A DNA stretch of 64,000 bases from a virus. The notes beneath the pieces were generated by a model. That model had not been told where the DNA came from. It did no database searches and saw nothing but the letters and a program-made list of their open reading frames with translations. Below are positions 11,382 to 58,937 of this stretch, in pieces. Position 1 is the first letter of the stretch. Every line of letters begins with the position of its first letter. The stretch lies in the IMG/VR virus record IMGVR_UViG_3300010389_000001, positions 1 to 64,000 of that record, one strand, 5' to 3'. The position numbers and the translations under genes are program-made.

Positions 11382-11783
11382 ATGGCTAACATCTTCACCA
11401 CCGAGACCACCGAGAGCGCCGTCCAGAACATCAAGGGCACCATGCGCGTGTACCGCGACGACGACGGAGAGGCTTACGTCTCTTTTGCAACGAACAAGGG
11501 GAAGGGCAGCGGTGCCCAGGTTATCCCCGTCGCTGAATTCGCCGATTGCGTTGCAGCCTTGGCGGAAATTTCTTCCAACGGTCTGCCTGAAGTGGAGGAG
11601 GAAATCTCTACCTCCGAGTCGATTCGTCGCACGGCAGCTCTGTCCGATGGGGTTATTTCCTTCCGGGTTCGCTCCGGAAAGGGAGCTAAGCCTGCCAAGG
11701 TTTCCAGCGATGAACTTGCCGACGTGGTAAAGCTTCTCCAGGGAACCGTCAAGGCTGTGGAGAAAGCAGCGAAGGATCTCTAG
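11382..11783 (+). CDS. Repeat-domain protein, paralogue A
   Basis: 133 residues, one of three paralogues (others at 17372 and 34141 minus). Two similar halves: VSFATNKGKGSGAQVIPV near residue 30 and ISFRVRSGKGAKPAKVS near residue 90, each followed by an acidic helix (FADCVAALAEI; LADVVKLLQGTV). The F-x-x-(N/S)-(K/R/G)-GKG motif repeats, so this is an internally duplicated small domain. Function unknown; the GKG loops could bind phosphate or nucleic acid. AGGAGG precedes the ATG. A covarying hairpin follows the stop. Confidence 0.72.
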   Translation: MANIFTTETTESAVQNIKGTMRVYRDDDGEAYVSFATNKGKGSGAQVIPVAEFADCVAALAEISSNGLPEVEEEISTSESIRRTAALSDGVISFRVRSGKGAKPAKVSSDELADVVKLLQGTVKAVEKAAKDL

Positions 11784-17371: not shown

Positions 17372-17803
17372 ATGGCTAACATCTTCAGCAACGACAGCAA
17401 CGAGAGCCCGCTCACCGTTATCCGCCAGACCATGAGCGTTTCGCTCGACGACGGGGGAACCCCGGTTGTCAGCTTTGCCACGAACCGTGGCAAGGGTTCG
17501 GGCGCCCAGACCATGCCGGTCGACCAGTTTGATGCCTATGTGGCTACTCTGGAGGGTTACGTCGCTGATGGCATTCCAGAGGGAACGCCAGAGGAAAACC
17601 TGACTGCTGCGGAGTCTGTGACCCGCACTATCAAGCTGGATGACGGGGTTATCTCGTTCCGTGTCCGGTCTGGTAAGGGCGCGAAGCCCGCGAAGATTCC
17701 TTCCGAGGACTTCGCGGAGACTGTCAAGCTGCTTCGCTCGACTGTTGCGGCCGTTCAGTCTGCGGGGGAGGGCCTTACCTCTTCCGATGACAGCGACGAG
17801 TAA
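17372..17803 (+). CDS. Repeat-domain protein, paralogue B
   Basis: 143 residues, closely similar to 11382 and 34141. Same two-fold layout: VSFATNRGKGSGAQ near residue 35 and ISFRVRSGKGAKPAK near residue 94, each followed by an acidic helix, with an acidic Ser-rich tail. AGGAGG precedes the ATG; two promoters in series suggest high or dual-phase expression. Ends at the covarying hairpin plus a strong terminator. Confidence 0.74.
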   Translation: MANIFSNDSNESPLTVIRQTMSVSLDDGGTPVVSFATNRGKGSGAQTMPVDQFDAYVATLEGYVADGIPEGTPEENLTAAESVTRTIKLDDGVISFRVRSGKGAKPAKIPSEDFAETVKLLRSTVAAVQSAGEGLTSSDDSDE

Positions 17804-32378: not shown

Positions 32379-32912
32379 ATGCTAACCTTAGATTCCTTAA
32401 ATCCAGATAAGCCTCTCTCTGTTTTTCTTGCAATTGGCTTTGCAGAGAAAGCCTTCCCGGTTTGGGAAAAAGAATATCCTGAGGATATGAGGCCGAGAAG
32501 GGCAATCGAAGCAGCTAAGGAGTGGCTAAAGAATCCCTCTGCTGCTGCTGCTAATGATGCTCGTGCTGCTTCTGCTGCTTCTGCTGCTTCTGCTTCTGCT
32601 GCTGATGCTGCTGATGCTGCTAATGCTGCTTATGATGCTGCTGCTTATGCTGCTTATGCTGCTGATGCTGCTGCTTATGCTGCTGCTTCTGCTGCTTCTG
32701 CTGCTAATGCTGCTTATGCTGCTGCTTATGCTGCTGCTTTAGTAGTAGATAAAGAAATCTTAATCCACGAAGTAATCTTAGAAAACCTAGACTGGATTCT
32801 GCAATATAAAATAGAGAATGAACAAAGCTTTGCTCAACCAGAGTTGGTCTTTGATTACTTAACCGAAGAACAAAAGCAGAGTTTTCTGTTTAATTTAGAT
32901 GCGGTGGCCTAA
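32379..32912 (+). CDS. Alanine-rich repeat protein, paralogue 1 (Imm5-like)
   Basis: 177 residues. N-terminus LNPDKPLSVFLAIGFAEKAF, then PVWEKEYPEDMRPRRAIEAAKEW; a central tract of Ala with Tyr/Ser/Asp/Asn coded by near-pure GCT repeats (32539-32737); C-terminus EQKQSFLFNLDAVA. The W-E-K-x-x-P-x-D-x-RP-x-x-AIEAA start followed by an Ala/Tyr helix array matches proteins called putative immunity protein (Imm5-like). Paralogues at 44419, 46598 and, distantly, 54922. The repeat tract is prone to slippage. Confidence 0.75.
   Translation: MLTLDSLNPDKPLSVFLAIGFAEKAFPVWEKEYPEDMRPRRAIEAAKEWLKNPSAAAANDARAASAASAASASAADAADAANAAYDAAAYAAYAADAAAYAAASAASAANAAYAAAYAAALVVDKEILIHEVILENLDWILQYKIENEQSFAQPELVFDYLTEEQKQSFLFNLDAVA
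32539..32737 (+). repeat. GCT trinucleotide-rich tract
   Basis: About 200 bp of GCT codons interrupted by TAT, GAT, TCT and AAT within the alanine-rich gene. Long enough for replication slippage; changes of 3n keep the frame. Confidence 0.9.
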
Positions 32913-33282: not shown

Positions 33283-34053
33283 ATGCTAAAAGATTTAATT
33301 AAAGTATCCAACTCCTTGGATTCAAAGGGCTTCCGGAAAGAAGCTGATGAGTTAGATAGAATTATAAGAAAGCTTGCTCAGGACGTTGGCTACCCCGGCG
33401 GACTGAATATGGAGAACCGATTTGTAGAAATGCCCACTCTTGAGATTGCTACACCTCCAAAGGGAATGTTCCTAATACCTGGTGATAAGACTTATGGCTA
33501 TGTAATGGATGAGGGAAATGCATCTTATACTGCTTATAAGCTGCCAAGAACGAATATAAATGAGACCAATAGATATATAAAGCTTAAGTCAGGGCTTACT
33601 GCAAATCTGGAAGATAGAGTTCTTCCGGCGGCCGGCATTACGACCCCCATGAAAGAGCACCCAGGGAATGTCGACGAGATACCCATGACAAGGTCGGATG
33701 AGGAAGAGGCATCAACTCCTGAGGTTGATGATCCTTATCTTGCATCAAAGCTTAGACCACTCCTAGAGGCAGTCGAGGCTCAGTATGGCGATGCTCTCAG
33801 GATCCCCGAGGATAATAAAAACGTTAAACAAATTGCAGCCCTTCTAGGCAAGGAGCGCCTTGATATATGGAGAGGAATCTCTACTGCTAAGCTAAAGAGA
33901 ATTGTTGAAAAAGCTATCCGCAAAGCCGAAAAGAGCAATGCTTCAGACGATGCTCTTTTCGCCGAAGCTTCAAGAAAAGAAAAGAGAATCTCCAAGATTG
34001 CTTCTCTTCTATCCGGCGAGTTTAATGGATTGGCAAAGTCTGTAAGGCGATAA
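33283..34053 (+). CDS. N-module protein (33.3 kb)
   Basis: 256 residues. Module LKDLIKVSNSLDSKGFRKEA plus DELDRIIRKLAQDVG at the N-terminus, then a Pro/Met-containing middle and a C-terminal helical region (RLDIWRGISTAKLKRIVEKA) that could be a second helical domain. No known catalytic motif. GGGAG precedes the ATG. It is isolated from the 36-43 kb group but built the same way. Confidence 0.7.
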   Translation: MLKDLIKVSNSLDSKGFRKEADELDRIIRKLAQDVGYPGGLNMENRFVEMPTLEIATPPKGMFLIPGDKTYGYVMDEGNASYTAYKLPRTNINETNRYIKLKSGLTANLEDRVLPAAGITTPMKEHPGNVDEIPMTRSDEEEASTPEVDDPYLASKLRPLLEAVEAQYGDALRIPEDNKNVKQIAALLGKERLDIWRGISTAKLKRIVEKAIRKAEKSNASDDALFAEASRKEKRISKIASLLSGEFNGLAKSVRR

Positions 34054-34056
34054 TCC

Positions 34057-34072
34057 GGGCAAAATATTTACA
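34057..34072 (+). repeat. 16-bp word
   Basis: Forward copy just after the 33283 gene. Confidence 0.85.
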
Positions 34073-34088
34073 TTTCTAAATAAAGGTT

Positions 34089-34124
34089 CCCCTCTCAGCA
34101 GATTACTGAGAGGGGTTTTCTTTT
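34089..34124. terminator. Bidirectional terminator
   Basis: CCCCTCTCAG-CAGATTA-CTGAGAGGGG then TTTTCTTTT; lies between convergent genes. Confidence 0.85.
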
Positions 34125-34140
34125 GTTACCCCGACTTATA

Positions 34141-34569
34141 TCAGTCTTCGTCAGACTCCTCCGGAGCAACAGAAGCTCCAGCCGATTGAACTGCCTCAAC
34201 CGTAGAAGCAAGAAGAGAAATAACTTCCTCAAAAGCATCCAGCGGAATTCGAGCGGGCTTAGCTCCCTTGCCACTACGCACCCGGAATGAAACCACTCCG
34301 CCCTCACAGCCAATCGTAGAGCGGATTGTATCGGTCACAGAGGGTTCGGTAGCCTCAGACTCAAAGCCGGCCTCCACGAAGCTCTGAAGGCATTCAACAG
34401 CTTCAGCAAATTGGGAAACAGGAATAACTTGAGCGCCAGTCCCCTTGCCACGATTCGTAGCAAAAGAAACAACAGGCTGACCCGAATCATCGAGAGAAAC
34501 AGACATAGTGGAGCGAACAACCTGAATGGGAGACTCAGTGTTATCGGAACCAAAGATTGCGGTAGACAT
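34141..34569 (-). CDS. Repeat-domain protein, paralogue C (minus strand)
   Basis: 142 residues from the ATG at 34569 (AAAGGAAAG upstream). Same two-fold structure as 11382 and 17372: VSFATNRGKGTGAQVIPV and VSFRVRSGKGAKPARIPL, with acidic helices and an acidic end (APEESDED). Own minus-strand promoter copy and a bidirectional terminator. Its presence in the AT-rich half ties the two compositional zones to one genome. Confidence 0.74.
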   Translation of the reverse strand: MSTAIFGSDNTESPIQVVRSTMSVSLDDSGQPVVSFATNRGKGTGAQVIPVSQFAEAVECLQSFVEAGFESEATEPSVTDTIRSTIGCEGGVVSFRVRSGKGAKPARIPLDAFEEVISLLASTVEAVQSAGASVAPEESDED

Positions 34570-34611
34570 ATTTTCTTTCCTTTTTAGGGGGGCGGGACCA
34601 TCCCACACCAC

Positions 34612-34639
34612 CCCATAACCGAGCTAGGATATAGGGCAA
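34612..34639 (-). promoter_or_regulatory. Conserved promoter, minus copy (paralogue C)
   Basis: Minus strand TTGCCC, 16-bp spacer TATATCCTAGCTCGGT, TATGGG. Confidence 0.83.
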
Positions 34640-34945
34640 GAAATTTTTTATTTTCATTAGAGAAGGATCTGACAGCTCATTACTCCGCCCAAGGAATCAA
34701 AGGAATTATAATAAAAATAATTTTTATTATAATTCCCGCAGACCGGGCACCCCGGGGCAAAATGTTTACTTAGCCATCAAAAACTTCTTTAACTTTTTTT
34801 ACGAACTTATTACTCAGCCTTCTGCTAATAATTTATAATATCATGAGATTCAAGGAGTCTCCTTCAGGCTAACTTGGCCGAAGGCAAACTATTTACAAAG
34901 GAAATCATTCAGCCCCCCGTTAGCTGTCTGTAGGAGAAAACAAAA
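34640..34945. other. Gene-free stretch with palindrome and repeat words
   Basis: Contains an AT-rich palindrome (half-site GGAATTATAATAAAAA, about 34699-34736) and 16-bp words at 34755-34770 and 34882-34897. No gene; it separates the divergent paralogue C and the 34946 gene. Confidence 0.7.
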
Positions 34946-35488
34946 ATGATTAAAGATCTAATTCGTTTAGCTAACCATCTAGACTCTATTGGACTTCATA
35001 AAGAAGCCGATACTTTAGATAAAGTTGCAATTACACTTCAGCCGGATGAGGATTATAATGATGAAATAACAAATGCCGATCCGATAATAGATGCCGCAGA
35101 GAACCTTATAGCCAGGGTAGAGAGGGGCGCAGAAAATGATCCTGCCATCCTCGAAGATGAAAGAGCAAGAGAATCGGCTGGAGATCATCGTCTATATGCG
35201 AAACTATATGAGGAGCTAGAGAGCGGGATATTTAATCTGGCAAAGCATATGGTTGATTCTGGAGGGACAATAGAAGATGTAGCTAGCCAGCTAGAAGATT
35301 CAAAAGAAGGAAGCTTTGGTTATTATTTAGAAAAAGAAATAGTCGAAGAATATGTGCAGGCTCTTATAGATATTGCAAACAAACTCTTTAGAGAAGAGCT
35401 TCCCCCCTTCGAGCTTAAACCAGAGGTCCTAATATCAAAGGCGAATGAAGCTCTAATGTCCGAGCCTTTACCGGAAGCACCCTTCTAG
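34946..35488 (+). CDS. N-module protein (34.9 kb)
   Basis: 180 residues. Module IKDLIRLANHLDSIGLHKEA / DTLDKVAITLQ, then an acidic helical body (RLYAKLYEELESGIFNLAKH). No known domain. AGGAG precedes the ATG. A 16-bp word and a terminator follow. Confidence 0.7.
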   Translation: MIKDLIRLANHLDSIGLHKEADTLDKVAITLQPDEDYNDEITNADPIIDAAENLIARVERGAENDPAILEDERARESAGDHRLYAKLYEELESGIFNLAKHMVDSGGTIEDVASQLEDSKEGSFGYYLEKEIVEEYVQALIDIANKLFREELPPFELKPEVLISKANEALMSEPLPEAPF

Positions 35489-35506
35489 AAATAATCCCAA
35501 CCCCCA

Positions 35507-35522
35507 GGGCAATTTATTTACA
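35507..35522 (+). repeat. 16-bp word (last copy seen)
   Basis: Forward variant; I find no further copy between here and 64 kb. Confidence 0.82.
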
Positions 35523-35544
35523 AAAGAACCAACCCCCCATTAAA

Positions 35545-35572
35545 GAAGGATCTAAACCATCCTTCTTTTTTT
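35545..35572 (+). terminator. Rho-independent terminator
   Basis: GAAGGAT-N7-ATCCTTC then seven T. Confidence 0.88.
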
Positions 35573-35573
35573 C

Positions 35574-35601
35574 TTGCATCTTATCCCCGCCGGGTTAGGG
35601 G
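35574..35601 (+). promoter_or_regulatory. Conserved promoter, degenerate -10
   Basis: TTGCAT, 16-bp spacer with TATCCCCGCCGGG, but -10 is TAGGGG. About 135 nt upstream of 35738; probably weak. Confidence 0.55.
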
Positions 35602-35737
35602 AGGGCGAGGCCCCCGTTAGATGCAACAGTAATAGCACTTAACTGACCATTCTAATGGAAGAAATTCAAACAAACTAAAGATAATCCGATAAAGACTTAT
35701 CTGGTATTATTTAACCAAAAGAAAAGGAGCCCAAGTT

Positions 35738-36277
35738 ATGTCAGACCAAACGAGCCAAAGGTTATTCTATCTTCACAAGGTAGCACCCAACCTCTATTCT
35801 CTTTATTCTCTAAAAACAGACCATCGCATTTTATCCGGAGTGACTCTAGAAGTCGCTTCGGATTTTTTGTTTTTAAATGAGCCGACCCACCCGGCTCTAA
35901 CTCACGAATGGATTTCTCAAAAGCTTAATGGAAAGTCCGACAAAGATACCGCTCACCTAACCTTCTCTATCAATAGCCTTCCAAACCCAGATCAAAATGA
36001 TCTTTCCATTATTCCCAGCAATCCTTTTTTCAATCCGCCCGGTTTAGATCTTTGTTCAGACTTAAAAGATTACCATCTTCTAAAGATGGACCCCCTCTAT
36101 AACTCTATAAGAACATACAGCAATCATCCCTTAGAGGAAACTTCAATGGAGTCTATGCTTTATAGATTCCTCCAAGAAGAGTTAGAGGCAGATAAGACAA
36201 AAAGCTCTCCCCCCACTAGGGAAGAAGCAAAAGTTATTTCAATGAAGGATTGGAAGACCTTAGACGTAGAAGACTAA
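35738..36277 (+). CDS. Hypothetical protein
   Basis: 179 residues. Hydrophobic/Leu-rich N-terminus (RLFYLHKVAPNLYSLYSLKT), a Pro/Asn-rich middle, and a C-terminal charged part ending VISMKDWKTLDVED; SMKDW resembles SLKDW in the 3112 protein. AAAAGGAG precedes the ATG. No family recognised. Confidence 0.6.
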   Translation: MSDQTSQRLFYLHKVAPNLYSLYSLKTDHRILSGVTLEVASDFLFLNEPTHPALTHEWISQKLNGKSDKDTAHLTFSINSLPNPDQNDLSIIPSNPFFNPPGLDLCSDLKDYHLLKMDPLYNSIRTYSNHPLEETSMESMLYRFLQEELEADKTKSSPPTREEAKVISMKDWKTLDVED

Positions 36278-36301
36278 GACAACTTTTTCTAATTTATTAA
36301 G

Positions 36302-36339
36302 GACCCCTTTTCTCCCAGGAGCGAAGGGGTCTTTTTTTT
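36302..36339 (+). terminator. Rho-independent terminator
   Basis: GACCCCTT / AAGGGGTC stem then eight T. Confidence 0.85.
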
Positions 36340-36856
36340 GGGGCAAAGAGGGCCTTTTTTTTGAGAATTAGAAGGCCTTTTTTTCTGAGGATCAGAGGGC
36401 TATATAATTCTGGAATAATTCTTGGGGTTTTTAGGGAAATTGGGGAAAGCCACGCAGCGCAGTTTTTCGCTTTTCCCAATTTTCCCCAAATTCCATATAA
36501 GTTTTTCCGGACCCACTAATCCGGAAAGAGCCTGACCCAAAAAATTTTCTATATATTTTTTTTGGATTTTTCATATAAGCCTATAAGCGCACGCGCGTGC
36601 GGACGCGCGATAGGGGCGGCCATGGGGCCTGCACGCCGGAAACCGAGGAAAGAAAGCCGGGACCAAAAAAGCCTCTGAGATAATGGGGCCCAGGGCTTTT
36701 TGATTTTTGATTTGCCGAGGTCTTTGTCCGGAAAAGATAAGAGCCAAACCGCCTGGTCCCCCCGGTCGGTGAGGATATACTAATTAAGTTTTATTTGATG
36801 TTATGTGGGTTTGGGCATAATGAACAATAACTTATTAGGATAAAGGGAAGCTAAAA
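36340..36856. other. Gene-free junction with inverted repeats
   Basis: About 500 bp: repeated AGGCCTTTTTTT blocks (36345-36385), an imperfect inverted repeat AAATTGGGGAAAGC / GCTTTTCCCAATTT (36438-36482), and a 14-bp GC palindrome CGCACGCGCGTGCG (36588-36601). It separates the repeat-word zone (left) from the N-module zone (right). No gene seen. Confidence 0.65.
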
Positions 36857-36991
36857 ATGTTAAAAGACTTAATTAGTTTAGCCAATGCCTTAGGTGAAAA
36901 TGGCTTAAGAGCAGAAGCAGATTACTTAGATAAGATTATAGTCTTTCTTTCCGATCATGGGTTTGAGGCCATTGAGCAACTGGGCTATTAA
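36857..36991 (+). CDS. Stand-alone N-module micro-protein
   Basis: 44 residues that are almost only the shared module: LKDLISLANALGENGLRAEA then DYLDKIIVFLSDHGFEAIEQ. GGGAAG precedes the ATG. Either the module folds and acts alone, or this is the truncated start of a former larger protein; the next gene begins only 26 bp later. Confidence 0.65.
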   Translation: MLKDLISLANALGENGLRAEADYLDKIIVFLSDHGFEAIEQLGY

Positions 36992-37017
36992 CCCAATACT
37001 TAGTACAAGGGGATAAG

Positions 37018-38115
37018 GTGTTTAACAAGTTAATCAATTTAAAAAAGACTCTATTATCTCTTAACCTTAAGGCTGGAGCCCAAGAGGTTGAGAGGCTAAT
37101 TAAATTAGCTGTGCCGATAGAGGCTGTAATATCTCCCGGGGAAACATCCATAAGATATAACGAAGAAGATGAAGATGAGGAACCCGAATGGAAAGATGAA
37201 GAGCCCAGAGTAGAACCTCCTTATGTTTCCGCTTATCCGACGCGGAGATGGTACGGTTCTTTATCCGCTCTCGGAAACTCTGTTATACTTATTCCAATGT
37301 CTTTTTCATTATTAGAAGAAGATGATATATGGGCTTTATCCAATATCTTTGGACTGGACTATGAATCTGATTCCGCTTCTCTTTTAGAAAAGATAAATGC
37401 TTTTTCTGCTTTTTCATATAAGGCCAAAAATAAGCTTGGAGACAGACATACTCTTAAAGAGCATTATCCAAATCTATGGAAAGCAATATCGGAAATCTTA
37501 GCGAAAAAGGGCTTAAGAGAAGAAGAGGTTATTTATTTAATCTTCGATGAAGATGAGTCTCCAGATCCAAGAATACTTTTGGACCCCGAGTTTTTTGCTC
37601 ACGACATTGGACATATAGATGCAGAGCTTGGCCTTCGTGGCGAAGGATATGAGGTAATGGATCTTTATCATTCTATATGGGGCTTCTTATTCGAAGCATC
37701 TAGATTATATAAATCTGAAGACGGCGATTCTTTGGCTATTGCCTTAAGCGATGATGAAGATGGGGAGCATTATGATTATGATGATATCAACGAGATGACC
37801 CGAAAGTTCTTTCCTCAAAATGTTTTCAGTGGCGACTACGGCGGTGATCCAAGCGATGAAGTTAACGATGTAATCTCGGCAGCATTAGCGGGAGAGTTAA
37901 AGGCAGAAATTCCGGAAACGATAACTTTTGAGGACGAGAAATATCATCTAGAAGAATCTAGAAGAGATGATTTGCTCAAACTAATATCTAACTTTAAAGA
38001 CCAGTTTATGAAGCTAATTAAAACCAAAGGCTCTGAAGATAAATGGGGTTATAAGGGACCGCTGGGCGAAGCCCGAGGTCATGTTATTGTTTACTCTGTT
38101 AACTCTGTTAACTAA
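37018..38115 (+). CDS. N-module-like protein (37 kb)
   Basis: 365 residues from GTG 37018 (AAGGGG upstream). A divergent module (FNKLINLKKTLLSLNLKAGA, then QEVERLIKLAV) precedes a large body with acidic patches and FFAHDIGHIDAELGLRGEGY, an HD/H-rich segment that might bind metal. C-terminal basic helix. No family recognised. Confidence 0.65.
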   Translation: MFNKLINLKKTLLSLNLKAGAQEVERLIKLAVPIEAVISPGETSIRYNEEDEDEEPEWKDEEPRVEPPYVSAYPTRRWYGSLSALGNSVILIPMSFSLLEEDDIWALSNIFGLDYESDSASLLEKINAFSAFSYKAKNKLGDRHTLKEHYPNLWKAISEILAKKGLREEEVIYLIFDEDESPDPRILLDPEFFAHDIGHIDAELGLRGEGYEVMDLYHSIWGFLFEASRLYKSEDGDSLAIALSDDEDGEHYDYDDINEMTRKFFPQNVFSGDYGGDPSDEVNDVISAALAGELKAEIPETITFEDEKYHLEESRRDDLLKLISNFKDQFMKLIKTKGSEDKWGYKGPLGEARGHVIVYSVNSVN

Positions 38116-38241
38116 GTTTTTATAATTATTCCTTGATCTTAACCAAACCGGCTTGCGCAAGATCAAAGTCTCTATTAATTTTTAAAAATAAGTTATATCA
38201 TTTATTATGATGAACTTTTATTACCTTAGGAGAATTTAAAA

Positions 38242-38862
38242 ATGCTAAAAGAATTAGTAAGGCTAGCTAATGCTTTAGACCAGAGAGGCTTGCAGAAAGA
38301 AGCCGATGCTTTGGACTCAATAATTCAGAAGTCTGCGGCTTCTTGGCCAACAGACGATTATGATTTTTTTGATTTTATAGATGAAACGCGAGATTTTAAA
38401 GGGGATGAGTCTTGGCATCCATCGGATGCCAATAGGGATGAGGCTAAAGAAATATTAGAATTCGACCCTGCAGCTTTCTTTATATATAGATTGCACAAAA
38501 GCTACCCAGATTTGGGCGAGAAAGCTGTACACAAAATAAAGCCGGGATTCTTTTTTTCCCGAAGACTCGATAAAGATTATCCGGACTTAGCCCAGGAATT
38601 TGCAACAAAACTTGCTGAATACCCGGGCTATAAAAGGGAATACTTTGACTTAGGTCTGCATGAAAGAGAAGAGTTCGCGGAAGTCACAAAGAAGGCCGCA
38701 ATAAGTTGGGCCGAGCATACAATGAATCCGGAAAGAGCATTAAACAGAATGGAAAAGTGGTTTCCCACTACGGTCAAAGCTATCAGAGATAACCTAGCGG
38801 ATAGCCCGGAACTGCTAGAGAAAAAGCCATTCCGCAGACGTAAACGGCAATCCTTAGGATAA
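38242..38862 (+). CDS. N-module protein (38.2 kb)
   Basis: 206 residues. Module LKELVRLANALDQRGLQKEA / DALDSIIQKSA; the middle has repeated FFIYRLHKSYPDLGEKA and FFSRRLDKDYPDLAQEF segments, an internal duplication; basic C-terminus (KKPFRRRKRQSLG). AGGAG precedes the ATG. Unknown function. Confidence 0.7.
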   Translation: MLKELVRLANALDQRGLQKEADALDSIIQKSAASWPTDDYDFFDFIDETRDFKGDESWHPSDANRDEAKEILEFDPAAFFIYRLHKSYPDLGEKAVHKIKPGFFFSRRLDKDYPDLAQEFATKLAEYPGYKREYFDLGLHEREEFAEVTKKAAISWAEHTMNPERALNRMEKWFPTTVKAIRDNLADSPELLEKKPFRRRKRQSLG

Positions 38863-38940
38863 AGAAACTGCAGACAAGGCAGGCAGATTAAAAAATTTTC
38901 GCGCCTGAATACAAACTAGACAAACTTACTAGAGAATAAA

Positions 38941-39609
38941 ATGCTTAAAGATTTAATAAAGTTAGCAAATGATTTAGACTCAAAGGGCTTAAGAAAAGAA
39001 GCCGACTATCTAGATAAGGTTATAAGGAAGCTTTCATCAGACTTAGATCTAGAAAACCCATGGGATTTAGATTATGTGCCAGAGGTAGAGCCGAGGCTTT
39101 CGCCCGAGAGTCTTGAGTCTATAGACCCCAAAATTCCTCTTCAGCATTTCCGTGATTCAAAAGATAACTATATTCGGAACATCAGTCGGGTGTTAGGAGA
39201 ACTTAAGGAGGTATGGGGTGATGCGCTTATGAAACCTTGGGCGAAGACGCTGGGCGGGCCTCTATGGTTCTCTGAAGAACCCGGCGAGCAAGGCATCATA
39301 TGGGATGAGGTCAAACGCTTCATGGAAAAGATTAAGAATGGACCGGAAGGAGTTGATACTGAACTAACTTACGATTTTGTTATAGGGACACTTGAAGATA
39401 AAGAGCAAGAGAAATTAGGCGAAGCTATAGAAAATCTTTTTAAACAAATCAATAGAGCGAAAGAGGCGGCCAAGACAGCGAGGAAAGAAAGTCTTAAAGC
39501 CAAAATTAGGCAGCATAAAGAAGGATATGACGATGGTCCTCAGGAGACTTTCGAAAAGGAGATGATTGTTCCATCGGGCGCTCCAGACATTGACCATCCC
39601 ACTTACTAA
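38941..39609 (+). CDS. N-module protein (38.9 kb)
   Basis: 222 residues. Module LKDLIKLANDLDSKGLRKEA / DYLDKVIRKLS at the N-terminus; body with a long charged helix (EAIENLFKQINRAKEAAKTA). Start supported by the module. No known domain. Confidence 0.7.
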   Translation: MLKDLIKLANDLDSKGLRKEADYLDKVIRKLSSDLDLENPWDLDYVPEVEPRLSPESLESIDPKIPLQHFRDSKDNYIRNISRVLGELKEVWGDALMKPWAKTLGGPLWFSEEPGEQGIIWDEVKRFMEKIKNGPEGVDTELTYDFVIGTLEDKEQEKLGEAIENLFKQINRAKEAAKTARKESLKAKIRQHKEGYDDGPQETFEKEMIVPSGAPDIDHPTY

Positions 39610-39724
39610 TTGTCGCATTACCTCATGAGAGGGAATGGTGATTCATTCGAGTAGCCCGAGCTTTCCTAAAACATAATGTTTAGACTCCCCGGAGGGGGTA
39701 AAAAAAAATCGTTGCGAAAAACAA

Positions 39725-40723
39725 ATGGACAAACAACTTACAACATTGGCAAAGGCTCTTGAATCTATTGGGTTTCGTAAAGAAGCAAGTAGAATTAGAA
39801 AACTGTCTTCCTTGGCCTCCGAAGAGGGCGGTTCACAAGATTATGGATGGCTTAACTATGGGATTACCGAAGAGATAAAGGCGAGAGTCGGAGAGGCCGC
39901 GTTCAACGAATTTATAAGATTAAACAGCGACAAGTTTAATGAGTGGTCGCCAAAGAGGTACTTGGGCTCTGGAAAAGTTGGAACTGCCTGGGAAATCGAA
40001 GGAAGATGGGGGAAGCGGGTCTTAAAGATATTTGATGCTGGCGCTTCTTTAAACGATTTTGAAAAATATAAAGCTATCCAAGATGGCTTATGGAGGGGTG
40101 AGGGGCATTCATCTATGCCAATGGTTTATGGTCTTGGCAAATTAAAGGTTCCTGCCCAGTTCTATAATATTAAATCTCCATCTGAGCATAACAGGCGTTA
40201 CCCCCAGTTAGCTTGGGTAATTATGGAAAGAGTGAATACGCCTCAGACAATCGCCGAAGATTATGTTGAACATAATCCCCATTTAATGAACAAAGATGAT
40301 GGTGATCATAAAATAAATAAAATTCCAATAGAAGATGTGCCTATTCCTCTGTGGAATTCTTACGAAAAAGATCCTTATGATTCTTTTTTGACTAAATTTG
40401 TTACTTATATGACTACCCATATAGTATGGGATATGGTCAAGACTTATGATAAGGCCGTAGCTCTCGCAAGAGCCGATGAGGAAGACCCTGAAGATCCCGA
40501 TGTTTTAGAAGAAATCAAATGGTCTATGGAGAAAGATATAGAGTGGAGCGAATCTTACGGAGAAGAATCTCTTGGAGCTTTTGAGACGGTGCTTGGGCTC
40601 AAGCAAGGATGGGAAGAGGAATGGGCCGAAGCTATTATAGCTAACCTAAAAGCGGAACGAGGAGATTTGCACGGATTGAACGTGGGGCTAAGAGGCGGGA
40701 AGCCGGTATTCTTTGATGGTTAA
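39725..40723 (+). CDS. Protein-kinase-like protein with N-module
   Basis: 332 residues. A divergent module (DKQLTTLAKALESIGFRKEA / SRIRKLSSLA) precedes a kinase-like fold: glycine loop LGSGKVGTAWEI, beta3 Lys in KRVLKIF, hinge AWVIMERV, catalytic loop GDLHGLNVGL and metal-site PVFFDG at the C-terminus. The protein ends at the DxG-like motif, so the activation loop and C-lobe helices of eukaryotic-type kinases are absent, as in some small phosphotransferases. Substrate unknown. Confidence 0.72.
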   Translation: MDKQLTTLAKALESIGFRKEASRIRKLSSLASEEGGSQDYGWLNYGITEEIKARVGEAAFNEFIRLNSDKFNEWSPKRYLGSGKVGTAWEIEGRWGKRVLKIFDAGASLNDFEKYKAIQDGLWRGEGHSSMPMVYGLGKLKVPAQFYNIKSPSEHNRRYPQLAWVIMERVNTPQTIAEDYVEHNPHLMNKDDGDHKINKIPIEDVPIPLWNSYEKDPYDSFLTKFVTYMTTHIVWDMVKTYDKAVALARADEEDPEDPDVLEEIKWSMEKDIEWSESYGEESLGAFETVLGLKQGWEEEWAEAIIANLKAERGDLHGLNVGLRGGKPVFFDG

Positions 40724-40805
40724 GTAGTCGCTGATTATATTATCTTGAATATGCTAATTAATTTATATTCTATGTCATAGACGAAACTAGTAAAAGGAAA
40801 TCGAG

Positions 40806-41351
40806 ATGATCAAAGAATTAATTCATTTAGCTAATGCATTAGACTCAAGAGGTCTGCAGAAACAGGCTAATGCCCTGGACTCTATAATAAGAAAGGTTGC
40901 CGAAGAAGAGGGCGAAAGATTTATAAAGGATATGGCAAGACTAGGCGGCGCTCTTAAAGAGGAGAGTGAAGGTGGCTCTGTGGTCAACTGGTTTCTCAAT
41001 GGCGCCGATGCTCCATTTGGCGACGAAGAAGCGATGAGTGAGTATAAACTTAATAATCATATTGGAAAGGCAGAAAAAGATTCTGGCGACAACTGGACTG
41101 TAACTGTCTGGAATCCTGAGTTAGAGTATCCAGTCGAAAGAAGCTATTCTGGAGAAGAGGCCAAAACTTTGGCTGAAGTTGGAATGACTCAAGATATTTT
41201 AGAGATGGAACCACTAAAGATGGTTCCAGAAGGCTATGAGTTTTCTGACCAAGAAGTTCCTGCCTATGAATCCGGAAGTCTTGATTCGCCAGAAGAGGTG
41301 GAAGAGCCTGACTTGGGCGTTCCGCCTTACATTAGCGATTTAGGGCTATAA
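40806..41351 (+). CDS. N-module protein (40.8 kb)
   Basis: 181 residues. Module IKELIHLANALDSRGLQKQA / NALDSIIRKVAEEEG; acidic body with a beta-rich part (DNWTVTVWNPELEYPVERSY). Module and ATG fix the start. No known domain. Convergent with the minus gene that follows. Confidence 0.7.
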   Translation: MIKELIHLANALDSRGLQKQANALDSIIRKVAEEEGERFIKDMARLGGALKEESEGGSVVNWFLNGADAPFGDEEAMSEYKLNNHIGKAEKDSGDNWTVTVWNPELEYPVERSYSGEEAKTLAEVGMTQDILEMEPLKMVPEGYEFSDQEVPAYESGSLDSPEEVEEPDLGVPPYISDLGL

Positions 41352-41353
41352 CT

Positions 41354-41899
41354 TTAGTAGCCTAGATCTTTTGCCAATTTATAAACATCATCTGGAGTTG
41401 GATCAAAACTAACTCCAATTAAGCCCAACCCCGTCTCTCTTGCGTATAAAGTAACCGCCCCAATCCTCTCAAGCCATCTGTTGAATTTTGCAATCTCCTC
41501 ATAGGTTGAAAGATCGGACAGACCATGAAGTCGTATAGACTTCTTTTCAGACGCCTCTATTGGATTGCTCTCTTTATCATATAATCTCTTTAATTTATCT
41601 GCGATTGTTTTAAGCTCTCCCTTAGGAACTTTGCTGGGATCTTTTATATAATATATCTCAGACCTCTCCATAAATATTGTTATGCCGTTCATAGGAATCC
41701 AGTCTCCCTCTTTATTTAAATGAGGTGTTCCGGTTCCGGTTGATCTATAAAAAACCTTTGGACTTCCATCTGACAGCCTTACTGCAAGTAATATTCTTCC
41801 TTCGTCGTCTGACCATATTTCGTCTGATGCAAGAAGAATATCTCCTATTTTTTTACCGCTATAAGGCTTAAATATATTTTTAAATTTGCTGAATATCAA
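41354..41899 (-). CDS. Hypothetical protein (minus strand)
   Basis: 181 residues: beta-rich first half (GDILLASDEIWSDDEGRILL, then FYRSTGTGTPHL) and a helical/acidic second half ending PTPDDVYKLAKDLGY. One of few minus-strand genes in this half, ending 2 bp from the convergent 40806 stop. No family recognised. Confidence 0.65.
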   Translation of the reverse strand: MIFSKFKNIFKPYSGKKIGDILLASDEIWSDDEGRILLAVRLSDGSPKVFYRSTGTGTPHLNKEGDWIPMNGITIFMERSEIYYIKDPSKVPKGELKTIADKLKRLYDKESNPIEASEKKSIRLHGLSDLSTYEEIAKFNRWLERIGAVTLYARETGLGLIGVSFDPTPDDVYKLAKDLGY

Positions 41900-42012
41900 A
41901 ATAATTTACTTATCCAATAAAATAAAATATATTAGCAAATATAATGCTTATAATCAACTAATATTAAAGGAATAATGACCGGCAGATAAAATGCCTCCTG
42001 GAGAATAAAGAA

Positions 42013-42327
42013 ATGATTAAAGAATTAGTTAAACTGGCAAATCACCTTGATGCAAAAGGATTAAAGAAAGAGGCTGACTTTTTGGACTCCGTTATAGAGA
42101 AGGCCGCCCAAGCAATGGCTGAGCCGAAGAAGGTTCAATACAAAGTATGCCCTGGTGAATCATGGTCCAGCATATGGGAAGATGCAACAAGGGGCACGGG
42201 CAAGTCTGTCGAGGATAACGTAGCTCTCAATGAAGGTATGGATCTAAGTACGGTACTACAGCCTGGTGATATGCTGACTGTATGGGCAAGACCGGAAGTC
42301 GAGGATACTGCTCAGAAGAGGTGCTAA
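42013..42327 (+). CDS. N-module protein with LysM-like domain
   Basis: 104 residues. Module IKELVKLANHLDAKGLKKEA / DFLDSVIEKAA, then a LysM-like ~50-residue unit: VQYKVCPGESWSSIWEDATR, VALNEGMDLSTVLQPGDMLT. LysM binds peptidoglycan or chitin, so this member could be virion- or wall-associated. Best example of the module fused to a recognisable domain. Confidence 0.72.
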   Translation: MIKELVKLANHLDAKGLKKEADFLDSVIEKAAQAMAEPKKVQYKVCPGESWSSIWEDATRGTGKSVEDNVALNEGMDLSTVLQPGDMLTVWARPEVEDTAQKRC

Positions 42328-42354
42328 AAAAATTATTAATGTAGAGAGGAAGTT

Positions 42355-42792
42355 ATGTCTTTAGTTTTGTTTTTATTTGGTCACGTCTTATCGTCACTCC
42401 TGGTTTATCTTAATCATAGATTTGTTTTGCATGGCAAACTTGGAAAGCTACCTCTTCTAAAAGATTTTAGGCAGTTGCATATCGCTCACCACAGACATGC
42501 TTATGATGACGAAAGGAATCTTCACTTTGAGCCTCTATGGCTCACTGGCTCGTTATTCTTTATAATAGGAGGAATAGGTATTCTTGTCAATGGGTATCTG
42601 GCACTTGGCATGGCTTCCTTTGCTGGACTATATGCCTACAGACATAAGAGAATCCACAATAAAGATGAGTCCTCCTACTTCTCCAAGCACCATAGATATC
42701 ACCATACCAGAAACGGCAGAGTGAATTTTTCTGGAATTTACCCTTGGATAGACAAACTGTTTGGAACCTTTGTAGACTCTAGTTGCCTGTAA
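42355..42792 (+). CDS. Fatty-acid hydroxylase superfamily protein
   Basis: 145 residues. Histidine boxes LNHRFVLHG, HIAHHRHAYDD and SKHHRYHHTR, with several hydrophobic helices (VLFLFGHVLSSLLVYL, FFIIGGIGILVNGYLALGMA). These are features of the di-iron membrane hydroxylase/desaturase superfamily (carotenoid or sterol hydroxylase-like). May modify host lipids during infection. GAGAGGAAG precedes the ATG. Confidence 0.82.
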   Translation: MSLVLFLFGHVLSSLLVYLNHRFVLHGKLGKLPLLKDFRQLHIAHHRHAYDDERNLHFEPLWLTGSLFFIIGGIGILVNGYLALGMASFAGLYAYRHKRIHNKDESSYFSKHHRYHHTRNGRVNFSGIYPWIDKLFGTFVDSSCL

Positions 42793-42850
42793 CCCTTGTT
42801 AAGTATATATAGCTCACGAAAAATTATCTGTCAATTTTTTTTAAAACAAA

Positions 42851-43093
42851 ATGGCTGTGCTATCAATAAAAAGAGATAAGATAAGAGCTTCACACATGTC
42901 ATATGAGCATAAATTTAGAATAACTATTGACTGGCTAAATCGGGTTGGCCTCACCAAAGAGGCGTCCGATTTGACAGCACTCATGCTGGATTGTCGGAAC
43001 CACTCCGAGTTGCTGGAGAAAATAAGATCCCTAAAGATTGAGCGAGCCAGAATGGCGATGCTAAATCGAGCTATGTTGAATAAGGCTTGCTGA
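42851..43093 (+). CDS. Hypothetical protein with divergent N-module
   Basis: 80 residues. KFRITIDWLNRVGLTKEASD then LTALMLDCRNH echoes the module after about 17 extra residues; a start at ATG 42896 would place it nearly at the N-terminus, and no Shine-Dalgarno sequence decides. Basic, helical tail (KIERARMAMLNRAML). Confidence 0.5.
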   Translation: MAVLSIKRDKIRASHMSYEHKFRITIDWLNRVGLTKEASDLTALMLDCRNHSELLEKIRSLKIERARMAMLNRAMLNKAC

Positions 43094-44215: not shown

Positions 44216-44425
44216 ATGGATATTGTCGGCGTTAAATTTAGGTTGCCTGGCATTTGGAGAATTAGAGATTTAGATATTCCGGTTACTATAGTTCAATATC
44301 TAGGCCCGAAAGACGGCGAAGACTGGTTTCTAATAGAATCAAAAGACGGCGAAGTTACTGGAGCACCAGCATCACAGTTGTTTGTAGATAAGTTTCCTCT
44401 ATCGGGAATAGAAAGCAAATGCTAA
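44216..44425 (+). CDS. Hypothetical small protein
   Basis: 69 residues; beta-rich (IVGVKFRLPGIWRIRDLDIP, TIVQYLGPKDGEDWFLIESK), probably a small barrel. Its end overlaps the start of the next alanine-rich gene by 7 bases. Confidence 0.6.
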   Translation: MDIVGVKFRLPGIWRIRDLDIPVTIVQYLGPKDGEDWFLIESKDGEVTGAPASQLFVDKFPLSGIESKC

Positions 44426-44901
44426 CCTTAGAGTCACTAAATCCAGATAAGCCTCTCTCTGTTTTTCTTGCGATTGGATTTTCAGAGAAGGCACTCCCGG
44501 TTTGGGAAAAAGAATATCCGAAGGATATGAGGCCGAGAAAAGCAATCGAAGCAGCTAAGGAATGGCTAAGCAATCCCTCTGCTGCTGCTGCTGCTGCTGC
44601 TAGGGCTGCTTATGCTGCTGCTTATGCTGCTGCTTCTGCTGCTGCTAATGATGCTGCTTATGCTGCTTATGCTGCTGCTAGGGCTGCTTCTGCTGCTGCT
44701 TATGCTGCTGTTTATGCTGCTAGGGCTTTAAAGGCAGATAAGGAAAGCTTAATCCACGAAGTAATCTTAGAAAACCTAGATTGGATTCTGCAATATAAGA
44801 TTGAGAATGGACAGAGTTTTGGAGATCCAGAGTTAATTTTTGATTACTTAACCGAAGAACAAAAGCAAAGATTTCTGTTTAATTTAGATGCGGTGGCCTA
44901 A
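44419..44901 (+). CDS. Alanine-rich repeat protein, paralogue 2 (Imm5-like)
   Basis: 160 residues; nearly identical ends to 32379 (LNPDKPLSVFLAIGFSEKAL ... EEQKQRFLFNLDAVA) but a shorter, different Ala/Tyr/Arg tract (44580-44728). The pair differ mainly in the GCT-repeat region, so they behave as length or sequence variants of one gene. Each overlaps or abuts a small beta-rich gene upstream. Confidence 0.75.
   Translation: MLTLESLNPDKPLSVFLAIGFSEKALPVWEKEYPKDMRPRKAIEAAKEWLSNPSAAAAAAARAAYAAAYAAASAAANDAAYAAYAAARAASAAAYAAVYAARALKADKESLIHEVILENLDWILQYKIENGQSFGDPELIFDYLTEEQKQRFLFNLDAVA
44580..44728 (+). repeat. GCT trinucleotide-rich tract
   Basis: About 150 bp of GCT with TAT, TCT, AGG and AAT interruptions, homologous to 32539-32737 but with different order. 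Confidence 0.9.
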
Positions 44902-46583: not shown

Positions 46584-46597
46584 AATCTAAATTGATC

Positions 46598-47167
46598 ATG
46601 CTGACGTTAAACGCCATACTGCCTGATGCGAAGCTATCCACCTTTCTTGCAATAGAGTTTGCGAAAGAGGCTCTGCCAATCTGGGAGGGGGCGAACAAGC
46701 ATGACGATAGGCCTCAAAGATCGCTGGATACTGTAAGCGAAATTTATGGAGACTTATCCGCCGCTGGAGGCTACGATAGAGCTTATGATGCATACAACTC
46801 AGCGGTACAGGCAACTTTTTCCGCCAAGTCTAAGGCCTCACTATCCAGTGCATATTCAGTAGCTTATGCTGCTTATACTGCGGCACATGCTGCCGCCCAT
46901 GAGCGAGATAAGCTTTTCGGCAGCACAAACGTTAATGCTAGATATAATCTTTCAATAAACTTGAGAACTTCCGCAGATTTTGCATCAGAAGCATTATTTG
47001 AAGTTAGCTATAAGTTTGTAGATAGGATAATAAAAAAAAGCTTAGACCATATTCTTGATTATAATATTGCTAATTCAAGAGGCTTTGGTGATTCAGAAAA
47101 AGTTCTTGAATCATTAAGCGATTTGCAGAAAGAAAAGTTCTTATTCAATATCGAGGTGCTAAGATGA
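46598..47167 (+). CDS. Alanine-rich protein, paralogue 3
   Basis: 189 residues. The start LTLNAILPDAKLSTFLAIEF, then LPIWEG and RPQRSLD, matches 32379/44419, and the end QKEKFLFNIEVLR matches their LFNLD end, but the middle is a diversified helix (AYSVAYAAYTAAHAAAHERD) with little GCT repetition. Suggests an older copy of the same family. Confidence 0.72.
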   Translation: MLTLNAILPDAKLSTFLAIEFAKEALPIWEGANKHDDRPQRSLDTVSEIYGDLSAAGGYDRAYDAYNSAVQATFSAKSKASLSSAYSVAYAAYTAAHAAAHERDKLFGSTNVNARYNLSINLRTSADFASEALFEVSYKFVDRIIKKSLDHILDYNIANSRGFGDSEKVLESLSDLQKEKFLFNIEVLR

Positions 47168-47307: not shown

Positions 47308-48588
47308 ATGATTTTTAGATATGTTGACTTGGACGAAGGGGCAGAAATCGCTCTGTCAGCAAGAGTGGTTGGTTTCCGCAGAATGGGCAATGTCTCGTTC
47401 GGGCATATACAAGATGCTACAGGAAGAATTCAGTTTTGTATAAAGAAGAACTCTCTGCATAGTCCGTCTGAATACAAAGAGCTTGTAAAGTCTATAACAA
47501 ATGGCTGCTTCCTCTCCTTGGAGGGAAACATATGGTTTTCAAAGACTGGCGAGAAGACGGTCCTTGTAACCTCTGGAGCTATGCTTTCTAGGCCGGTTAC
47601 ACCAATGCCCTCTAAGTTCTATGGCATAGCGGACGAAGAGAGCCTAATTAGAAAGCGATACCTTCACACGGCGCTAGATGCTGATGCGGCATCGACCTTT
47701 CTTATCCGGTCAAAGGTAATAAGTATTATAAGAGAGTTCTTAACTTCGTCGGACTTTCTTGAGGTCGAGACTCCAATCTTATCTGCTCAGGCATCTGGAG
47801 CTATTGCCAGGCCCTTCATAACTCATCACAATGCATTGGATAAGGATTTTTACCTAAGGATTGCGCCAGAGACTTATCTAAAGATGATGACTGCAGGAGG
47901 ATTCAATAAAGTATTTGAGATTGGCAAGTCCTTTAGAAATGAAGGATTAGATCGGTCTCACGTTCAAGAGTTTACTTCTCTTGAGTGGTATTATGCTTTT
48001 GCTGATTACCAAAAGAATAAGCATTTATTTTCATCACTTATAGGCAGAGTGTTGAATGTCCTAGGTTTCGACGGAGGCTTAGTTCAGCGTGGCGACGTAA
48101 AGCTGGATTTTTCAAATATAGAAACGAAGAAGTATAGGGAATTGTTTGAGGAGTATGGTCTAAATGGCCCGGACTCCTATTCTTCGCAGGAAGCAGATGA
48201 TTTGTTCAAGAAGGTTATTAGGCCGAACATTATACAGCCTCTTTTTGTTGAAGATTATCCGGCTCATATGTCGCCTATGGCTGCAAGAAAGCCTAATGAT
48301 GAATCAACGGTAGAGCAGTGGCAGCTAATAGTGGACGGCTGGGAAATAGCCAAGTGTTATACCGAGCTTATTGATCCAGTCCTGCAGAGAAAACTCCTCG
48401 AAGATCAAATGCAACAAAGGGCCGAAGGAGATGAGGAGGCTATGATGATTGACGAAGCCTTCCTTGAGGCAATGGAATATGGTATGCCTCCACAGTCTGG
48501 TCTGGGCCTTGGCATAGATAGATTAGTTTGCTTGCTTGCAGATAAGCAAACCCTTAGGGATGTTATATATTTTCCGCTAACTAGGTGA
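47308..48588 (+). CDS. lysS: Lysyl-tRNA synthetase, class II
   Basis: 426 residues. OB fold first (VVGFRRMGNVSFGHIQDATG), then class II motif 1 (FLTSSDFLEVETPIL), motif 2 (FEIGKSFRNEGLDRSHVQEF) and motif 3 (GLGLGIDRLVCLLAD) near the C-terminus, with LysRS-specific LRIAPETYLKMM. It lacks the ~50-residue N-terminal helix of host LysRS (~500). Charges tRNA-Lys with lysine; a phage tRNA-Lys is at 29975. It could also act on EF-P or another tRNA. All three motifs look intact. Confidence 0.93.
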   Translation: MIFRYVDLDEGAEIALSARVVGFRRMGNVSFGHIQDATGRIQFCIKKNSLHSPSEYKELVKSITNGCFLSLEGNIWFSKTGEKTVLVTSGAMLSRPVTPMPSKFYGIADEESLIRKRYLHTALDADAASTFLIRSKVISIIREFLTSSDFLEVETPILSAQASGAIARPFITHHNALDKDFYLRIAPETYLKMMTAGGFNKVFEIGKSFRNEGLDRSHVQEFTSLEWYYAFADYQKNKHLFSSLIGRVLNVLGFDGGLVQRGDVKLDFSNIETKKYRELFEEYGLNGPDSYSSQEADDLFKKVIRPNIIQPLFVEDYPAHMSPMAARKPNDESTVEQWQLIVDGWEIAKCYTELIDPVLQRKLLEDQMQQRAEGDEEAMMIDEAFLEAMEYGMPPQSGLGLGIDRLVCLLADKQTLRDVIYFPLTR

Positions 48589-52649: not shown

Positions 52650-53026
52650 GGGGGTGAATAGGTTTCGACGTGGCAATGAGCCTGGATAGTGCAAGCGGTC
52701 TGCGGCAACAAAAGACCTAAATAGTGTTGCAAAACTAATAATTGCCAACAACAATTATCACTACAACTCTGTCGCTCTAGCGGCTTAGTCGTCGGGGCTT
52801 CTAGTCGCCTTGTAACCAAAGGCTAGATAACAGGTAGATCCCTGCGAAAATAAAAAATCAAAATGGCTACCCTCGTTGTATGAGGTGGAGCGCAATAGGG
52901 CAGTGAGCGCTGGTTGGAAAATCTGTCTATCTTTGCTGATTTGTGATAGTAAATCGGACAAGCTTGTGAACGACTTGAATGGTTATTTGTTGCGGACGCG
53001 AGTTTCGATTCTCGCCACCTCCACCA
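52650..53026 (+). ncRNA. ssrA: tmRNA (ssrA)
   Basis: 377 nt. 5' GGGGGTGAATAGGTTTCGAC and 3' GAGTTTCGATTCTCGCCACC ACCA give the tRNA-Ala-like end (acceptor GGGGGTG/CACCTCC). Tag ORF at 52729-52788 encodes AKLIIANNNYHYNSVALAA then stop, ending in the LAA degron type. Rescues stalled ribosomes and tags the product for proteolysis. Confidence 0.97.
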
Positions 53027-58915: not shown

Positions 58916-58937
58916 CCCTATGGAGGAGTGCGCCTTT

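Follow-up and report, generated by a model that had tools for sequence, protein, structure and literature searches.

We report here that a 32-residue two-helix tag is common to more than 100 otherwise unrelated proteins of large uncultured bacterial viruses. Judged from sequence, the probable role of this tag is to bring an exchangeable set of proteins into the virion, and we put at roughly 60% the probability of a model in which the hairpin is a docking domain that recruits the proteins fused to it to the assembling head, functionally like the capsid targeting of T4 and P1 but built differently. The window, that is, the whole stretch of DNA that was analysed, covers the initial 64 kb of a virus record of 232,533 bp (G000).

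The module in the window and in the rest of the record

In order to avoid circularity, the search profile was trained on other viruses only (215 instances, G000 excluded) and run over all ORFs of the record, with the best of 37,640 shuffled G000 ORFs giving a noise level of 8.1 bits. An earlier note on this DNA had described a shared N-terminal module on the proteins at 33283, 34946, 36857, 38242, 38941, 40806 and 42013 and had suggested a profile search as a check; ORFs are present at all of these coordinates, and the independent profile recovered the seven with 40-58 bits (E 2.6e-11 to 6e-17). They open with the pattern M-[LI]-K-[DE]-L-[IV]-x-[LV]-[AS]-N-x-L-[DG]-x-x-G-[LF]-x-x-[EQ]-A-[DN]-x-L-D. 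On the plus strand, as for all window copies given here, the module begins ORFs of 256 aa (33283-33378, aa 1-32, E 2.5e-15), 180 aa (34946-35029, aa 1-28, E 1.3e-14), 206 aa (38242-38337, E 3.6e-15), 222 aa (38941-39036, E 9.7e-16) and 181 aa (40806-40901, E 6.7e-15), whose bodies have no assigned function. The C-terminal parts had been described as unrelated and partly LysM-like, and this was confirmed; in the protein at 42013-42327 the module (aa 1-32, E 6e-17) is followed by a LysM domain (aa 43-91, Pfam E 7.6e-4). The 44-aa ORF at 36857-36991 (E 2.6e-11) is almost only module, a tag alone with no cargo body. There are other short tag-only ORFs as well, one of 46 aa being in contig L023. 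Directly after the tagged LysM gene lies a fatty acid hydroxylase gene (42355-42792, Pfam E 2e-11), homologues of which are found in other tag-bearing contigs (L053, L056).

The weaker copies that had been listed fared less well. At 39725-39796 an ORF of 332 aa starts with a diverged module (aa 2-24) that is marginal, with E 0.014 and 12.5 bits compared with 8.1 bits for the best decoy, and the body of this protein, which had been described as kinase-like, has no Pfam family. The internal copy in the 80-aa ORF 42851-43093 is a marginal half-module (aa 29-45, 42935-42985, E 0.0043). The profile did not match the ORFs at 37018 and 1386, the latter being correctly called a GNAT domain protein (E 6e-7), and the ORF that contains 2437 and starts at 2353 gave 5 bits, within noise.

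In total, the independent profile found 10 strong copies in the record, those beyond the window being N-terminal at 69336 and C-terminal at 68751, a putative peptidase with an HEYGH motif seen by eye, and at 132933. In addition, an internal copy in the ORF at 143889 is diverged (E 1.6e-4 with the profile from other viruses). The seven main copies of the window share, pairwise, a mean identity of 66% in DNA and 64% in protein, with third positions agreeing in only 53% of cases at shared residues, a pattern that suggests old copies maintained as protein sequence rather than recent duplicates.

Conservation and predicted fold

The module is most conserved at D13 (99%), A21 (98%), L12 and G16 (93% each), A9 (91%), L5 (90%), and E20 and D25 (88% each). 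AlphaFold2 predicted, for the LysM protein at 42013, helices at residues 2-14 and 18-35 with a pLDDT of 96-98 across residues 1-30, and for a natural three-copy protein three confident hairpins; the predicted architecture is helix, Gly turn and helix. Structure searches with the hairpin gave no significant match; such a search cannot place the module, because a single helical hairpin is too simple. The consensus had zero matches in Pfam at E 10, and PHROGs searches over 105 tagged proteins returned no recurrent family. A kinship with TPR proteins, suggested by an LA-N-x-L...G...EA likeness seen by eye, was rejected, as hhalign against a designed TPR gave a probability of 0.1, the TPR proteins among the structure matches were all non-significant (E around 1 or higher) and the consensus lacks a Pfam match. 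A variant tag, MNKRQIIASLNNIANELDxxGLYKEANxITxVMxRLA, is present on several adjacent genes in a sub-lineage (L144, L159, L175, L181, L189).

Given that helical hairpins are generic and that the structure searches were without a significant match, the module might be a stabilising or dimerising helical cap that was spread by modular recombination and has no common destination. We consider this improbable, as the conservation of Asp13, Glu20 and Asp25 goes beyond what the fold needs.

Distribution among viruses and cellular genomes

Two degenerate DNA patterns for the module matched 57 and 111 stretches of IMG/VR contigs, and profile searches computed homology for 222 instances in 202 distinct proteins, which form about 135 body clusters once the module is masked. 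The designation as N-terminal describes 148 of these instances and has proved too narrow, since a further 32 are C-terminal and 42 internal; such freedom of position would suit a helical cap. The largest number of copies per record, 21, was found in a 223-kb record that shows no TerL or MCP match and may be incomplete.

Applied to 257 Gb of genome sequence from bacteria and archaea, the first DNA pattern matched 59 chance-like stretches and no convincing module. A cellular origin was rejected on these chance matches, and as far as such genome scans reach the module is virus-specific, which speaks against a mere helical cap. Among 50,697 phage isolate records there was no significant match to the tag, to its second subtype or to the 132933 protein. 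The nearest isolates are Bacillus phage G (by MCP, at 53% identity), Tunturi_5 and Rctr197k; the module is absent from these three and from the uncultured record LR745208, in a search that had no positive control among them. When 24 module-bearing records were tested, most of the long ones had a TerL or an MCP from one and the same lineage, which held also when TerL had been replaced; the 223-kb record with 21 copies is among the exceptions.

Several other features of the window were recorded. A tmRNA gene (52650-53026, tag ANNNYHYNSVALAA) and seven tRNA genes (23814-45574) are present, and a LysRS-like ORF at 47308 and a TilS-like ORF at 58920 were seen by eye. Three paralogues carry the motif FRVRSGKGAKPA (11382-11783 and 17372-17803 on the plus strand, 34141-34611 on the minus strand), and this small family has relatives in several related contigs. 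The ORFs at 32379-32912 and 44419-44901 are paralogues with long variable alanine-rich repeats between conserved ends, and the ends of 46592-47167 are similar to theirs. At 30-452 the contig starts with the peptide YKRQ, which we take to be a common artefact of Illumina adapter read-through, so that the left end of the contig may be artificial.

Conserved head-cluster proteins carry the module

Genes for the family of the 132933 protein lie some 6 kb upstream of that for the large terminase. With terminase as the sole criterion for choosing loci, the family turned up in 44 of 80, and many of the other loci are too short to extend that far. Most members have one to three copies of the module, which may be terminal, at either end, or internal. 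Some versions are module-less in contigs that carry tagged cargo (e.g. L254 and L261); a role of 132933 as sole receptor was rejected on this ground, and it is probably not the obligatory receptor. The 143889 family, encoded between the portal and protease genes, has the module in mid-protein, and in hhalign it matched the module across all 33 columns with E 3.5e-9, column shuffles doing no better than 0.01. The 150554 family adjoins the protease-scaffold gene and ends in two related hairpins, for which the profile-profile match was weaker (E 5e-5, shuffles no better than 0.003). Two further candidates were discarded: a diverged module in 134460, plausible by eye, scored no better than column shuffles, and the match of 138275 was restricted to the second helix. 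The ORF at 147332-150544 of the record (L013:7332-10544) fuses the maturation protease and a scaffold-like part in 1070 aa, the two parts being matched in separate genes of phage G; this fused protein or the inner surface of the MCP is a possible candidate for the receptor of the tag.

The conserved carriers thus flank the terminase, portal and protease-scaffold genes, and a tagged slot, described below, lies inside that operon. Both observations, together with the lack of any strong or significant copy in the tail-gene part of G000 in the profile search, weigh against a second alternative, in which the hairpin would dock cargo on another phage-made scaffold, such as the tail, the baseplate, a compartment within the cell or a centre of DNA packaging or replication, that the head-cluster carriers would also visit. 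The slot stands beside the terminase gene, several cargoes are cell-wall enzymes that would suit a tail too, and most tagged genes of the window are outside the head cluster, the seven main ones about 90-100 kb from it, which counts against docking at the head; we nevertheless regard another scaffold as unlikely, albeit the least unlikely of the alternatives. The earlier note had offered a phage compartment, the capsid or a common scaffold as destinations, of which the head or its scaffold is favoured by the carriers in the terminase-portal-protease cluster. Nothing found here points to a phage compartment, and neither a chimallin shell protein nor an import factor is among the families listed (25 in each of two lists).

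A variable slot in the head operon

Between the homologues of 137195 and 138275, immediately ahead of the gene for the large terminase, the operon has a variable slot, which we examined in 64 terminase-selected loci showing both homologues. In 44 loci the slot is empty, the two genes being 7-36 bp apart, and in 20 it holds one or two extra genes. Every one of these inserts (22/22) has an N-terminal module, on nine unrelated body groups that include a LysM-containing cell-wall hydrolase; several of the contigs are closely related, so that the independent events number nearer ten than twenty. In other slots of the same operon only 1 of 57 inserted ORFs, many of them short, is tagged, a contrast that a helical cap with no common destination would not predict. 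A looser count by iterated BLAST gave 13 of 15 tagged, including two untagged ORFs of 81-89 aa that are likely overlapping reading frames; its second round absorbs some tagged genes into other families, and the 22/22 is the cleaner count. Since the loci were not picked by looking for the module, the slot is the strongest single observation of this study. With the hairpin in head-cluster proteins and a slot of tagged genes only, the earlier proposal that many cargoes share one docking module has strong support, and it is this comparative genomics of head-cluster carriers and tag-only slot that makes the head the preferred destination.

Cargo bodies

The tagged bodies that could be recognised include LysM and cell-wall hydrolase domains, PilZ and cupin, a GDSL lipase that also has a peptidoglycan-binding domain, a SAM methyltransferase and the anti-restriction N-terminal domain of ArdC. 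Inspection by eye showed metallopeptidase-like HExxH motifs in 68751 and L189, and the majority of the bodies matched no known family. By analogy, this repertoire fits proteins carried in the particle, such as the T4 internal proteins and the P1 Dar proteins. In L174 a single module stands between an N-terminal part like L211 and a C-terminal part like L047, two bodies that each have their own module in L211 and L047. As L174 joins two separately occurring bodies around it, the module also works as a recombination joint, a property that a helical cap would share.

Discussion

In the model of docking at the assembling head, the hairpin would be a small folded protein-protein docking domain, with Leu5, Ala9, Leu12, Asp13, Gly16, Glu20, Ala21 and Asp25 as near-invariant residues, that brings the fused protein into the prohead core or the inner capsid. 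The cargo would thereby become part of the virion and probably be delivered with the DNA; tagged proteins would, we infer, physically bind the prohead, be packaged and be ejected into the host. In the conserved members of the head cluster the same hairpin would be part of a scaffold or inner-head network, and accessory cargo genes would gain it at the N-terminus, at the C-terminus or internally, which would make them swappable.

Here we also speculate, at slightly less than even odds, that this folded, position-independent virion-loading domain is the general cargo code of a whole lineage of uncultured large phages, in which interchangeable tagged effectors (anti-restriction proteins, envelope enzymes, modifiers) occupy a dedicated slot in the head operon as well as arrays elsewhere, are packaged in the head and are delivered when the phage infects. 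If the tag loads heads, one profile would list the candidate virion cargo of the entire uncultured lineage from sequence alone, and more than 100 proteins with no assigned function would become candidate injected effectors. In addition, capsid cargo loading could then rest on a mobile folded domain and not only on a cleavable leader, and the module could be exploited as a fusion tag for placing chosen proteins in phage particles.

Among known systems, bacterial microcompartments use encapsulation peptides, short helical elements on many enzymes that direct them into a protein shell. The likeness to the module is an analogy only; these peptides are shorter and of cellular origin. The capsid and tail cargo proteins of crAss001 are virion-borne and ejected into the host, according to the available part of that report, which gives no common tag (PMC10172136). 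Phages of the SPN3US/phiKZ type are also large and have a maturation protease and many head-borne proteins, but their propeptides, mostly of 111-254 residues with two of 20-24, are cut at a fixed motif and do not form one conserved small domain (PMC10052503). In P1, a reporter needs no more than the first 30 residues of DarB to reach the capsid, and folding of this targeting region has been suggested to be needed; the Dar proteins, however, have no shared consensus (PMC9024508), whereas here one motif is shared by more than 130 families.

The closest comparison is with T4, in which short N-terminal propeptides steer internal proteins into the prohead core and the set of cargo varies between relatives (PMC9026906). 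Like the capsid-targeting sequence (CTS) of IPI-III and Alt (PMC9026906), the module recurs, often terminally, on accessory proteins that are otherwise unrelated (here 202 proteins with about 135 bodies), and the cargo set varies; the prohead core would, to judge from the genomic association, be the likely destination here too, and the anti-restriction cargo known in T4 has a counterpart in the ArdC-like cargo. The module could be a T4-type propeptide that the maturation protease cuts off during head maturation, as the removable tag envisaged in the earlier note would imply. In keeping with this, the tag is mostly N-terminal on unrelated proteins, the phage encodes a head maturation protease domain and a Glu-Ala dipeptide in helix 2 is conserved (88% and 98%). 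We nevertheless hold cleavage to be the least probable of the readings considered, and the data lend no support to a removable tag. The T4 CTS is an N-terminal peptide of 10-19 residues removed by gp21, whereas the module, a hairpin, is folded, measures about 32 residues and can take any position (74 of 222 instances are C-terminal or internal), with up to three copies per protein, and is also part of conserved head-cluster proteins. The 25 residues after 128 N-terminal tags contain no conserved motif (at most 0.33 bits per position), and the residue two before Glu20 is variable, unlike at T4 and SPN3US sites (PMC9026906, PMC10052503); a cleavage site may lie inside the hairpin. Thus, the module, which we do not file as a T4-type CTS because its size, fold and position differ and no cleavage site is visible, may nevertheless work alike.
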